Assembly (NCBI GenBank): GCA_902806065.1 | Contig: CADCVE010000060.1 | Coordinates: 1 to 64,000, forward strand | Direction of reading: 5' to 3' | From: an uncultured Rubrobacteraceae bacterium | GTDB taxonomy: Bacteria > Actinomycetota > Rubrobacteria > Rubrobacterales > Rubrobacteraceae | Length of the DNA stretch: 64,000 nt | The notes under the pieces: model-generated | Database searches by the model: none | Told to the model about the DNA's origin: nothing | What the model saw: the letters and a program-made list of their open reading frames with translations, nothing else | Shown: positions 53,159 to 64,000 of the stretch, piece after piece | How the letters are laid out: the number at the start of each line of letters is the position of its first letter | Position numbering within the stretch: the stretch's first letter is position 1 | Position numbers and translations under genes: made by a program

Positions 53159-54052
53159 ATGCAGGGAGAGCCCGGACGCAATACCTACGTGCTCAGGAGG
53201 GTTATAGCTGCCCTCGTTGTCCTGCTCCTGCTCGCCTTTCTAGTCCCCCAAGCCTGCCAGGCGCTGCTAGGTTCCGGGGGAGACAGCTCCTCGAATACCG
53301 CCGACGTGGATAGCTCCAGCGAGGATAGTTCCGTTAATGACTCCGCGGATGAGTCCGCCGAGAGTTCGGGAGACGAGGAGGCCGCTTCGGAGAAGGAGAC
53401 CGCGGAGAGCGAGGAAGGCTCTAGCAGCGAAACCTCCGACAATGAGGATGTTGACCCGGCGAGTAGCGACAGCGAGACCTCCGAGGGCGCGGAGTCCGAA
53501 GAGGAGGACGAGAGTAGCGAGGGGGAGCAGGACGCTGAAATTGGCGCGGTGGAGTTCGATGCAGCGAACACGTACCTTGAAGGGACGCCTGTAGGTGGGG
53601 GCGAGGTCGCTCAGGTTGGGCCGTTCCCGCTCCTCGATGCCATTGCCCAGCAGCCGCTGGCACTTAGTGAGCCGGTCTTCGTCCCGGAGCCGGTAGAGGC
53701 TCCCATAGAACCCGTCCCCGCCCAGGCCCCTGTAGTTCCGGTGGAGCCCGCTGTCGTCGAGGCGCCGATCATCGCCGAGGAGCCAATTTTCTTCGAGGAT
53801 CCGGTGTTTTATGAGGAGCCGATTTTCTTCGAGGAGCCTGTGTTTTATGAGGAGCCGATTTTCTTCGAGGACCCGGTGTTTTATGAGGAGCCGGTGTTCT
53901 ATGAGGATCCGGCCTTTTTCGGGGAGCCGGTGTTCTATGAGGAGCCGGTCGCTCCAAGTGGTAGTGACGGCGGTGGCGCGGCTGTTGCCGTTAGCAGTGT
54001 CACGGTCGACAACGAGCGTGGTGGTGGTGGACGCGTGCGGGTATCGTCGTGA
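53159..54052 (+). CDS. Membrane-anchored acidic protein with EPxFxE hexapeptide repeats
   Basis: The 297-residue protein has an N-terminal membrane helix or signal anchor (VIAALVVLLLLAFLVPQAC), possibly a lipoprotein-like Cys. A long Ser/Glu/Asp-rich disordered stretch (residues about 40-125) follows. Residues about 207-263 consist of near-perfect repeats of the type E-E/D-P-I/V-F-F/Y. The C-terminus is Gly/Val-rich. GGAAGG lies about seven bases before the ATG. No family recognised. It is probably a surface or wall-spanning protein. It follows a long structured leader. Confidence 0.7.
   Translation: MQGEPGRNTYVLRRVIAALVVLLLLAFLVPQACQALLGSGGDSSSNTADVDSSSEDSSVNDSADESAESSGDEEAASEKETAESEEGSSSETSDNEDVDPASSDSETSEGAESEEEDESSEGEQDAEIGAVEFDAANTYLEGTPVGGGEVAQVGPFPLLDAIAQQPLALSEPVFVPEPVEAPIEPVPAQAPVVPVEPAVVEAPIIAEEPIFFEDPVFYEEPIFFEEPVFYEEPIFFEDPVFYEEPVFYEDPAFFGEPVFYEEPVAPSGSDGGGAAVAVSSVTVDNERGGGGRVRVSS
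53777..53948 (+). repeat. Tandem 18/36-bp repeats encoding EEPxF(F/Y)
   Basis: About nine successive 18-base units, many paired into near-identical 36-base blocks, encode EEPIFFEDPVFY-like repeats. Synonymous differences are few, so the array is recent or homogenised. Confidence 0.9.
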
Positions 54053-58209: not shown

Positions 58210-59076
58210 ATGAACCACGGACCCACAGCGGTCCACGGAGATACAGGGGTCGGGCGCCTTACAGGCCCCGGCCCCGTTCTCATGGGTATCCTGAACGTAA
58301 CTCCCGACTCCTTCTCCGACGGCGGAGACTTCCTTGCCGTGGACACGGCCATAGCCCAGGCCGGGAAGATGCTGGACGAGGGAGCACAGGTAATAGACGT
58401 CGGCGGTGAATCCACGCGGCCTGGCTCGGACCCGGTCAGTCCCGAAGAGGAGTTGCGCCGGGTGATACCAGTAGTACGAGGCATCCTGGAGGCCCGCCCT
58501 GAAGCCATCGTCTCGATAGACACCTACCGGGCCTCGACCGCGGAAGCTGCCCTCGACGCCGGGGCACTTGTCGTCAACGACGTCACCGCGCTCCGCGGCG
58601 ACCTGAGAATGGCTGATCTGATAGCTGATAGGGGATGCCGGATCGTCCTCATGCACATGCTCGGTGAGCCGAAGACCATGCAGCAAGACCCGCGTTACGA
58701 AGACGTAGTACGCGAAGTCCGGGACTTCCTCGCGAGCAGGGCGGAGCGCGCGATACGGGCCGGAGTACAAGAGGAGAATATCATCCTCGACCCCGGCATT
58801 GGTTTTGGTAAGACCCTTCAACATAACTTACAGCTCCTGAACGGCCTCGGTGATCTTGTCAAACTTGGTTTCCCCGTGCTCGTTGGGGCCTCACGTAAGG
58901 GTTTCCTTGGCAAGCTCACCGGCACCAAGGGCTCCAACGGCACCAGAGATCGTCTTTTCGGGACGGTGGCGACGAGCGTCATAGCCTATGAGCGGGGGGC
59001 GAGGCTCTTTCGCGTACACGACGTCCGGGCCAACAAGGAGGCACTCGAGGTGGCGGCGGCCGTTCAGCGAGCTTAG
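58210..59076 (+). CDS. folP: Dihydropteroate synthase
   Basis: The 288-residue enzyme condenses dihydropterin pyrophosphate with p-aminobenzoate, the sulfonamide target. Motifs: MGILNVTPDSFSDGG, VIDVGGESTRPGSDPVS, VSIDTYRA, NDVTAL, DPGIGFGKTLQHNL and VGASRKGFLG. The start ATG follows the ftsH stop without a gap, so translation is coupled. FolE, usually upstream in actinobacteria, is not here. The fused ClpN-FolB gene follows after 71 bases. Confidence 0.95.
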   Translation: MNHGPTAVHGDTGVGRLTGPGPVLMGILNVTPDSFSDGGDFLAVDTAIAQAGKMLDEGAQVIDVGGESTRPGSDPVSPEEELRRVIPVVRGILEARPEAIVSIDTYRASTAEAALDAGALVVNDVTALRGDLRMADLIADRGCRIVLMHMLGEPKTMQQDPRYEDVVREVRDFLASRAERAIRAGVQEENIILDPGIGFGKTLQHNLQLLNGLGDLVKLGFPVLVGASRKGFLGKLTGTKGSNGTRDRLFGTVATSVIAYERGARLFRVHDVRANKEALEVAAAVQRA

Positions 59077-59147
59077 TAAGCTTCTTCTCTTAGTTGTTTG
59101 CGAGAATGCTGCAAGCTCAAGGGCTGCCAGAGAGGAGGTCTCGTCGA

Positions 59148-59975
59148 ATGTTCGAACGGTTTACCGAACGGGCCCGTAAAGCGATAGTGCTGGCCCAGGA
59201 AGAAGCTCGGCGCCTCAACCACGGCTATGTTGGTACCGAGCACCTGCTTCTCGGTCTTCTCCGCCAGGAAGAGGGCGTGGCTGCTCGCACTCTGAACTCC
59301 CTCGGTGTCACTCTAAAAGAGGCGCGCGAGCAGATAGAGAGCATGGTCGGGCGTGGTGAGGAGGGGACGGCAGACCAGCCGCCGTTCACCCCCCGCTCGA
59401 AGAAAGTTCTCGAGTTCGCTCTGAGGGAAGCGGTGCAGTTCGAGGACGCCTACGCCGGTGCCGGACACATCCTGCTTTCGCTGGTCAAGGAGACGAACGG
59501 CACTGCAGCTATCGCACTGTCACATCTCGGCGTCACTCCCGAAGAGGCGAGTGTGGAGATTACACAGAGGCTCACTGTTGCTGACCCCGAGGATTCGGCG
59601 TACGCACGAAGCTTACGAGCGAGCGTGGTCAGGGCGCGCGTGGAGGGACTGCTGGTCCATACACGCTGCGGTGTTACGGACGAGGAACGAGCCTTGCCCC
59701 AGGCTCTGCGTGTGGATCTGGAGTATATGTACCGGGCTGGAGAAGGAGATGAGATCGAGGAGACCGTGGACTACGGAGCTGTTCTCCAGAACGTAGCCGG
59801 GCTGCTGGAGCGAGAGGAGTTCCGTCTGCTGGAGACGGGGATGCGGAGGGTGGGAGGGCACGTTTTGGAGGGTTTCCCCGCGATATTGGAGGCTACCGTG
59901 CGTGTCACCAAGCTAAACGTTCCGGTAGCCCGAGTGGTCTCCGGGGTCTCGGTCGAGGCGACCTTCCGCCGGTGA
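59148..59975 (+). CDS. folB: Clp N-domain fused to dihydroneopterin aldolase (FolB)
   Basis: Start at ATG 59148, with AGAGGAGG about eight bases upstream; it gives the ClpC-like N-terminus MFERFTERARKAIVLAQEEA. Residues 1-145 are a complete double Clp_N domain (repeat 1 about 5-68, repeat 2 about 80-143: FTPRSKKVLEFALREAVQFE). Residues 161-275 are FolB: GVTDEERALPQALRVDLEYM, ETVDYGAVLQNVAGLLEREE, FRLLETG and VTKLNVPVARV with the conserved catalytic Tyr209, Glu229 and Lys255. FolB cleaves dihydroneopterin to hydroxymethyl-dihydropterin. No AAA+ module follows. Over 86 residues I count 67 identities to the start of clpC at 63741. It overlaps folK by four bases, so the FolB part is in its normal operon position. 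Confidence 0.95.
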   Translation: MFERFTERARKAIVLAQEEARRLNHGYVGTEHLLLGLLRQEEGVAARTLNSLGVTLKEAREQIESMVGRGEEGTADQPPFTPRSKKVLEFALREAVQFEDAYAGAGHILLSLVKETNGTAAIALSHLGVTPEEASVEITQRLTVADPEDSAYARSLRASVVRARVEGLLVHTRCGVTDEERALPQALRVDLEYMYRAGEGDEIEETVDYGAVLQNVAGLLEREEFRLLETGMRRVGGHVLEGFPAILEATVRVTKLNVPVARVVSGVSVEATFRR

Positions 59976-60469
59976 AGCGGGTTTTCCTGAGCCTGGGTGG
60001 CAACCTTGGAGACCGGCTGGGATATCTGCGGGCGGCAGCCGGGGCGCTCGGGCGGGGACCGGCTTTGGTAGTGCGTGGGGTCTCCAAGGTTTATGAGACG
60101 GCGCCGGTGGAGGTGGAGGGGGAGCAGCCGGATTATCTGAACTGTGTCGTAGAGGTGGAGTGTGGCCTCTCGGCAGTCGAGCTTCTACGTTACTGTCAGG
60201 GTGTGGAGGTGGTGCTTGGGCGTGTTGGGAAGGGGGAGAGTCTCCCGAGGACGGTGGACGTTGACGTGTTGCTCTTCGGGCAAGAGGTTATCGACTCGCT
60301 GGACCTCGTGGTACCGCATCCGGGGGTGTTGCGGGCGTTCAACCTCAGGGGCATCGCGGATCTTGGCCCGGAGGTGTATATTCCCGGGCTTGGAGTAGCC
60401 GGTGAGCTATTGATGGAGGCCGATTTGGACGGGGTCTGGGAGTTTGGGGAGGTTGGAGAGATTTGCTGA
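59972..60469 (+). CDS. folK: Hydroxymethyl-dihydropterin pyrophosphokinase (divergent)
   Basis: The 165-residue protein starts at GTG 59972, overlapping the folB stop. FolK family features: FLSLGGNLGDRLGYLRAAAG, VSKVYETAPVEVEGEQPDYLN and PRTVDVDVLLFGQEV, the metal-binding DxD. The substrate loop is atypical: HPGVLRAFNLRG in place of HPRxxERAFVL, and the usual GPR before TLDID is reduced to LPR. Position between folB and coaX supports the assignment. Activity may be altered but the ATP/metal site is kept. Confidence 0.88.
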   Translation: MKRVFLSLGGNLGDRLGYLRAAAGALGRGPALVVRGVSKVYETAPVEVEGEQPDYLNCVVEVECGLSAVELLRYCQGVEVVLGRVGKGESLPRTVDVDVLLFGQEVIDSLDLVVPHPGVLRAFNLRGIADLGPEVYIPGLGVAGELLMEADLDGVWEFGEVGEIC

Positions 60470-63606: not shown

Positions 63607-63741
63607 ATGGAAATGAAATTTATGAGAGATAGAGCGAGGTATAATCCGCTTATTGCTGGCGGACGTAGTCATTTACGAAAGACCAATACGGTTATAAGAG
63701 AAGCCGTAGAGGACCCTCGGAACGGAGGAGGCTCCAGCTAA
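63607..63741 (+). CDS. Small ORF (44 aa) overlapping the clpC start
   Basis: ATG 63607 has GGGAGAAGG about five bases upstream and opens a 44-codon frame (MEMKFMRDRARYNPLIAGGR) ending at TAA 63739-63741, which shares its last base with the clpC ATG (TAATG). The protein is basic with no membrane segment. Such an overlap suggests translational coupling; the ORF may be a leader peptide or a true small protein. Not recognised. The AGGAGG used for clpC lies inside its end. Confidence 0.5.
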   Translation: MEMKFMRDRARYNPLIAGGRSHLRKTNTVIREAVEDPRNGGGSS

Positions 63742-64000
63742 TGTTCGAACGATTCACCGAACGGGCTCGCAAGGTGGTGGTCCTTGCACAAGAAGAGGCC
63801 CGTCACTTCAACCACAACTACATAGGCACGGAACACCTGCTCCTTGGCCTCTTGCGCGAGGATGAAGGTGTCGCCGCCCGTGCCCTTGGCTCCCTGAACG
63901 TCACCCTCGACGAGGTGCGCGAGCAGGTCGAGAGCATCGTCGGTTACGGCGAGGAAGGGACGGGCGGCCAGGCGCCGTTCACCCCGCGCTCGAAGAAAGT
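63741..64000 (+). CDS. clpC: ATP-dependent Clp protease ATPase subunit ClpC (runs off window)
   Basis: The first 86 residues of ClpC (MFERFTERARKVVVLAQEEA) give the first Clp_N repeat and the start of the second (FTPRSKK). The two AAA+ modules would follow outside the window, so full identity as ClpC is inferred. GGAGGAGG lies about ten bases upstream of ATG 63741. ClpC unfolds substrates for ClpP; its N-domain binds adaptors. The same N-domain is fused to FolB at 59148. Confidence 0.85.
   Translation, partial: MFERFTERARKVVVLAQEEARHFNHNYIGTEHLLLGLLREDEGVAARALGSLNVTLDEVREQVESIVGYGEEGTGGQAPFTPRSKK

Follow-up and report, generated by a model that had tools for sequence, protein, structure and literature searches.

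A ClpC-type N-domain fused to dihydroneopterin aldolase in the folate operon of Rubrobacteraceae: a possible decoy for ClpC ligands

In the folate operon of an uncultured Rubrobacteraceae bacterium, a single open frame joins a ClpC-type N-domain (here ClpN) to dihydroneopterin aldolase (FolB), and other soil bacteria of the family carry the same fusion at the same site. We tentatively read its product as a working FolB that also serves as a decoy or sponge made of the N-terminal domain (NTD) of ClpC, in the manner of mycobacterial ClpC2 but on a different oligomerising partner; this is the interpretation we favour, at a little under an even chance. The gene lies in a window of 64,000 nucleotides, the whole stretch of DNA analysed, and 39 genomes of the same GTDB family were searched and their loci read. 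G000 denotes the window genome; the comparison genomes, numbered likewise, are mostly drafts, and some of their frame breaks possibly result from faulty assembly. The features of the window on which the argument draws are:

59148 to 59975, + strand: the clpN-folB fusion gene, 275 amino acids (P0001), an open frame with orthologues in relatives
59131 to 59139, + strand: the Shine-Dalgarno sequence AGAGGAGGT, read directly, 8 nt 5' of the ATG, with a calculated duplex of -12.7 kcal/mol
59148 to 59573, + strand: the ClpC-type N-domain, residues 1-142, two Clp_N repeats, from Pfam and alignment to solved NTDs
59574 to 59615, + strand: the linker, about residues 143-156, weakly conserved (windowed identity between G000 and G001 of 28-33%)
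59616 to 59972, + strand: the FolB domain, residues 157-275, from Pfam and residue alignment
58210 to 59076, + strand: folP, 5' of the fusion; in many family members without the fusion, folK lies directly 3' of folP
59972 to 60469, + strand: folK, whose start overlaps the stop of the fusion by 4 nt
63741 to 64000, + strand: the first 86 codons of clpC, the putative source of the fused N-domain; the rest of the gene lies beyond the window

Both halves of the protein lie far above the Pfam gathering thresholds: Clp_N is found twice (whole-protein E-value 1.4e-29, 102.5 bits against a threshold of 20.7) and FolB (PF02152) once, at residues 164-271 (E-value 1.6e-23, 83.8 bits against 31.8). The FolB half passes the NCBIfam domain model TIGR00526 (57.2 versus 45.05 bits) and narrowly misses the equivalog cut-off of TIGR00525 (69.1 versus 72.15 bits). 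In FolB enzymes Glu22, Tyr54 and Lys100 act in catalysis and Glu74 anchors the pterin; upon alignment, E180, Y209, E229 and K255 of the window protein correspond to E22, Y54, E74 and K100 of S. aureus FolB, all four being present. Clp_N and FolB were the sole domains found, AAA+ modules and the M-domain being absent from the 275 residues: judged by Pfam and the catalytic residues the protein is a FolB, and, having no AAA+ module, it is not a ClpC. An AlphaFold2 monomer model from a four-row alignment reached a mean pLDDT of 46.8 and is interpretable only as an order of helices and strands. The anti-Shine-Dalgarno pairing of the ATG at 59148 is the strongest among the seven gene starts compared, and the overlap between the fusion stop and the folK start makes translational coupling possible. 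An earlier note on this DNA had described a double Clp_N joined in frame to a FolB with its catalytic residues, a good ribosome site and a location within a folP-folK operon, and each of these descriptions agrees with what we found. Elsewhere in the window, an open frame of 297 aa (53159-54052) possibly encodes a low-complexity protein that is secreted or displayed on the surface: an N-terminal segment is hydrophobic, a Ser/Glu stretch is acidic, and F-[FY]-E-[ED]-P repeats are numerous.

A search for other Clp_N-FolB architectures, as the note had proposed, returned about ten other Rubrobacteraceae genomes with the fusion at folP/folK. Among the 39 family genomes, it occupies this site in G000, G001, G004, G018, G020 (with a run of N), G052, G048, G053 and G021 (with a frame shift); G014 and G043 have it 5' of folK at a contig start, in G047 the contig ends within it, and in G005 the locus has several frame breaks. 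In G003, ClpN contains a TAG and a frame change while the FolB frame is intact, and G002 and G009 carry FolB alone at the folP/folK site, ClpN being absent. In G010, G011, G012, G016, G019, G022, G023, G024, G041, G045, G050, G051 and G054, folK comes immediately after folP. Among 396 genomes of the phylum, matches covering both halves at E <= 1e-38 were confined to Rubrobacteraceae, in a search that very divergent fusions could escape, and a scan of named organisms gave one match, the uncultured Rubrobacteraceae MAG AVDCRST_MAG37. We found no paper that combines a Clp_N domain with dihydroneopterin aldolase, and a literature search for Rubrobacter together with ClpC returned nothing relevant.

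The independent occurrences rule out misassembly or a frameshift as the origin of the fusion: the same in-frame junction is present in G001, G004 and G018, whose fusions are 71%, 53% and 51% identical to that of the window, and in the two-contig genome G053. They also show that the local duplication proposed in the note cannot be a recent event confined to the window genome, since the fusion is family-wide and old: it is present in G018, one of the deepest-branching members, and the FolB at this site forms a single clade. Horizontal arrival of folB need not be invoked either. In other families of the phylum, an unfused folB occupies the position between folP and folK within the same operon, which also contains clpC, and this site is therefore ancestral. 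A tree built from operon proteins by a quick method, with SH-aLRT as its sole support measure, leaves the deepest split of the family, which includes G018 with its active fusion, unresolved. As judged from these comparisons, the simplest history would be a single ancient fusion that was later lost repeatedly.

FolB of this family falls into two lineages: type A, at the fusion site, is one clade (support 100/99), and type B, encoded by a second, unlinked folB, is another (98/99). In the loci read, type B folB neighbours RibD-like, alcohol-dehydrogenase-like and QueD/6-PTPS-like (hereafter QueD-like) genes, and this cluster probably belongs to another pterin pathway. Acyltransferase-like genes are also seen in the cluster in G018 (C39), G053 (C1, near 1159 kb), G001 (C327) and G004 (C503). 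PF02152 finds no second FolB in the window genome (95% complete); type B was likewise not found in G002, G003, G004 and G009, and in all five genomes type A is intact. G000, G002 and G003 also lack the QueD-like gene that marks the type B cluster, and G004 has the cluster with folB alone missing between its neighbours, next to an intact fused FolB. In G001 and G018 both types are intact. Type A of G014, G052, G043, G048 and G053 has lost Tyr54 and Lys100, and in the alignment its Glu22 loop is lost or badly disrupted, the placement of Glu22 being unsure in G048 and G053; G021 displays the same pattern of catalytic loss. All six of these genomes with a dead FolB carry type B and have kept ClpN.

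The dead FolB is still recognisable in a profile comparison with canonical FolB (E-value 3.9e-6), and Glu74 is invariant across all type A sequences, dead ones included, which hints that the pocket of the dead FolB may still bind a ligand. Taken together, the gene contents suggest a reciprocal pattern: where the second folB is present, the fused FolB is usually dead and ClpN is kept; where it is absent, FolB is intact, and ClpN has been lost or broken in several such lineages. The association is strong, though it comes from related and partly incomplete genomes and does not amount to an independent statistical test. Since FolB is retained in G002 and G009 without ClpN and in G003 with a broken one, ClpN is not needed for FolB, and because the gene is, in addition, missing at the locus in many family members, any role of ClpN is accessory. 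The same three genomes bear on the note's suggestion that the N-domain places FolB under Clp control, for which we obtained no positive evidence.

ClpN is 68% identical to the NTD of ClpC encoded 4.6 kb downstream in the same genome (96 of 142 residues, and 67 of the first 86, exactly as the note had counted), and derivation of the fused N-domain from a Rubrobacteraceae ClpC is supported by comparison of the sequences. The modules are not monophyletic: most of them are nested among the ClpC NTDs of Rubrobacteraceae (96/92), that of G001 groups with the ClpC of its genus (96/84), and in the second module of G048 a tract of 32 codons shares 95-97% of its nucleotides and 100% of its third positions with the clpC of that genome. 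The nesting and the G048 tract together indicate that the fusion keeps exchanging sequence with clpC, and the ClpN/clpC similarity noticed earlier is in part due to such gene conversion. In G001 (C220, 3744-4613) a frame break separates the two repeats of the clpC N-domain; it may be an assembly fault provoked by the similar fusion copy nearby. G048 and G053 each possess a single frame of 446-453 residues (C48, 6312-7697, and C1, 2898001-2899365, respectively) consisting of two ClpN double-modules, with four Clp_N stretches, and a dead FolB. Values of dN/dS, calculated according to Nei and Gojobori with dS being high, are 0.17-0.43 in ClpN against 0.01-0.05 in the NTD of ClpC itself, and 0.20-0.36 in active against 0.33-0.79 in dead FolB. 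They suggest that ClpN is under purifying selection, constrained much less than in ClpC, and that dead FolB is relaxed, with the caveat that conversion from the slowly evolving clpC could alone lower the value for ClpN.

The ClpN half is closest to the solved NTDs of ClpC and ClpC1. In ClpC of B. subtilis and S. aureus, E32 and E106 define two phosphoarginine pockets and K85 is an anchoring point (PMC12583610); the residues of the M. tuberculosis protein that touch cyclomarin A are F2, F80 and E89 (PMC10030653). The window copy keeps the equivalent of E32 (pArg2) as E31 as well as the groove equivalents of F2, F80, K85 and E89, and has a glycine in place of E106 (pArg1). Across 11 intact modules, the equivalent of E32 is kept in 11, E106 in 10 (the exception being the window copy), F80 in 10, F2 in 9, and K85 and E89 in 8 each, K85 being replaced in G004, G018 and one module of G053; of the 142 positions just 25 are invariant, T6 and E31 among them. 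With regard to partners, the window genome contains three matches to ClpS (C110:3661, C104:44606 and C77:56396), and a search of it for the arginine kinase McsB gave no match, the control in that search being silent too. Many Rubrobacteraceae have open frames of about 190-260 aa for stand-alone ClpC2-like Clp_N proteins (G001:C261, G002:C1 near 1934 kb, G007:C37, G013:C333, G019:C5, G022:C3, G050:C24 and C34), none of which was seen in the window genome. In another family of the phylum, G034 (C10, 6514-7648) has two adjacent Clp_N frames, apparently without AAA+ domains.

According to the interpretation we favour, the FolB half would be the dihydroneopterin aldolase of the organism, an activity that we infer because its residues are intact and the copy is the sole one found. 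The N-half would be a ClpC N-domain cut off from its ATPase and still capable of binding ClpC ligands, with ClpS-type adaptors, ClpC substrates and NTD-directed peptide antibiotics as candidates; ligands bound in this way would not be handed to degradation, so that the protein would act as a decoy or sponge as ClpC2 does. FolB enzymes are commonly octameric, and if the FolB half assembles in the usual way, several copies of ClpN would be displayed, which makes a ClpC2-like trick with more copies plausible. FolB also tolerates extra domains, for instance in FolB-FolK fusions, although there the partner is another folate enzyme and not a proteostasis domain. With canonical FolB the fusion shares E22, Y54, E74 and K100 and the folP/folK position known from related families; it differs by the attached NTD and by the loss of catalytic residues in sister lineages. 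With the NTD of ClpC or ClpC1 it shares, beyond sequence, a two-repeat fold predicted by homology, whereas the AAA+ modules and the M-domain, the glutamate at position 106 in the window copy and the strong constraint are lacking.

The closest parallel is mycobacterial ClpC2, in which a dimerising domain is joined to a homologue of the ClpC1 NTD that sequesters cyclomarin A (PMC10030653); ClpC2 and ClpC3 are reported to dampen ClpC1-directed degraders (PMC10914731). For the mechanism, the note's statement that no such system was known was consequently too strong, since ClpC2 already pairs an oligomerising domain with a ClpC-NTD sponge. The two proteins have in common a ClpC-NTD homologue without AAA+ modules, placed on a domain that oligomerises in ClpC2 and would do so in the fusion, and the cyclomarin-contact residues F2, F80 and E89 are conserved in the window protein, which may bind such compounds. 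ClpC2, however, has an N-terminal four-helix dimerisation domain, carries its NTD at the C-terminus, binds DNA and regulates itself, whereas the fusion opens with its NTD at residue 1, has FolB as its C-terminal partner and is encoded in a folate operon. The ClpC2 operator CGTCAAC-N5-GTTGACG occurs at chance level only, with no match near the fusion gene. Given the differences in partner, domain order and operon and the missing operator, the fusion is not an orthologue of ClpC2; it may work like it.

The main rival holds that ClpN is a passenger with little or no function, captured once in ancient times and owing its conserved look to conversion by clpC; it would have been kept open because a stop would harm expression of the essential folB downstream in the same frame or of folK. 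The conversion tract in G048 and the grouping of the G001 module with its genus' ClpC fit this explanation, as do the constraint relaxed relative to ClpC and the absence or breakage of ClpN in three genomes that did not lose FolB, and the window genome itself is well explained. Protection of folB, however, cannot account for a conserved ClpN in six genomes whose fused FolB is dead, two of them with ClpN doubled, nor does a passenger sit well with the invariance of the pocket residues T6 and E31 among the 11 modules. As it explains poorly the persistence and doubling of ClpN where FolB is dead, we regard it as possible, yet on the unlikely side. The decoy proposed in the note is the reading that best fits ClpN kept and doubled on dead FolB, although the decoy role itself is inferred. 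Also counted in its favour are the sole FolB found in the genome with its catalytic residues, the absence of the QueD-like marker, the signs of selection, the pocket residues and the three ClpS matches. Against it we count that ClpN evolves far faster than the ClpC NTD, that the window copy has lost one phosphoarginine glutamate, that ClpN is absent or broken in G002, G009 and G003 and the whole gene missing at the locus in many relatives, that conversion alone could lower its dN/dS and that the ClpC2 operator is absent.

Two further explanations appear to us very improbable. The fused NTD could act on ClpC in trans, competing for sites on the M-domain and AAA1 and thereby tuning ClpC or bringing FolB to it: NTD anchoring points on these two domains hold ClpC in an inactive resting state (PMC12583610), the equivalent of T7 is invariant, and K85 is kept in most modules, but its replacement in the remaining three argues against such an interaction, which is itself a prediction. 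Equally doubtful is the production of FolB mainly from an internal start, leaving the N-domain as a leader or a separate protein. An in-frame GTG at 59553 does have a Shine-Dalgarno-like GAAGAGGCG (-5.8 kcal/mol, versus -5.9 for folK), and in G003 FolB has its own frame 3' of the broken ClpN; nevertheless, the site of the ATG at 59148 is far stronger than any other, and the remaining fusions that could be read through in full retain the junction in frame.

A wider version of the decoy idea, which we consider unlikely, is that a FolB-scaffolded array of ClpC N-domains buffers or tunes ClpC across the family and that in the pseudoenzyme lineages it is possibly gated by pterin, linking folate state to ClpC proteolysis. 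If ClpN were instead a passenger, the gene would clearly exemplify a fusion that survives through gene conversion. The family offers a natural experiment, in that a single gene has lost its enzyme half in some species and its putative decoy half in others. Should ClpN bind drugs directed at the ClpC1 NTD, it would represent another intrinsic sponge for a drug-target domain, and if the decoy reading is true, the idea embodied in ClpC2 would reach another deep actinobacterial lineage on an unrelated scaffold.
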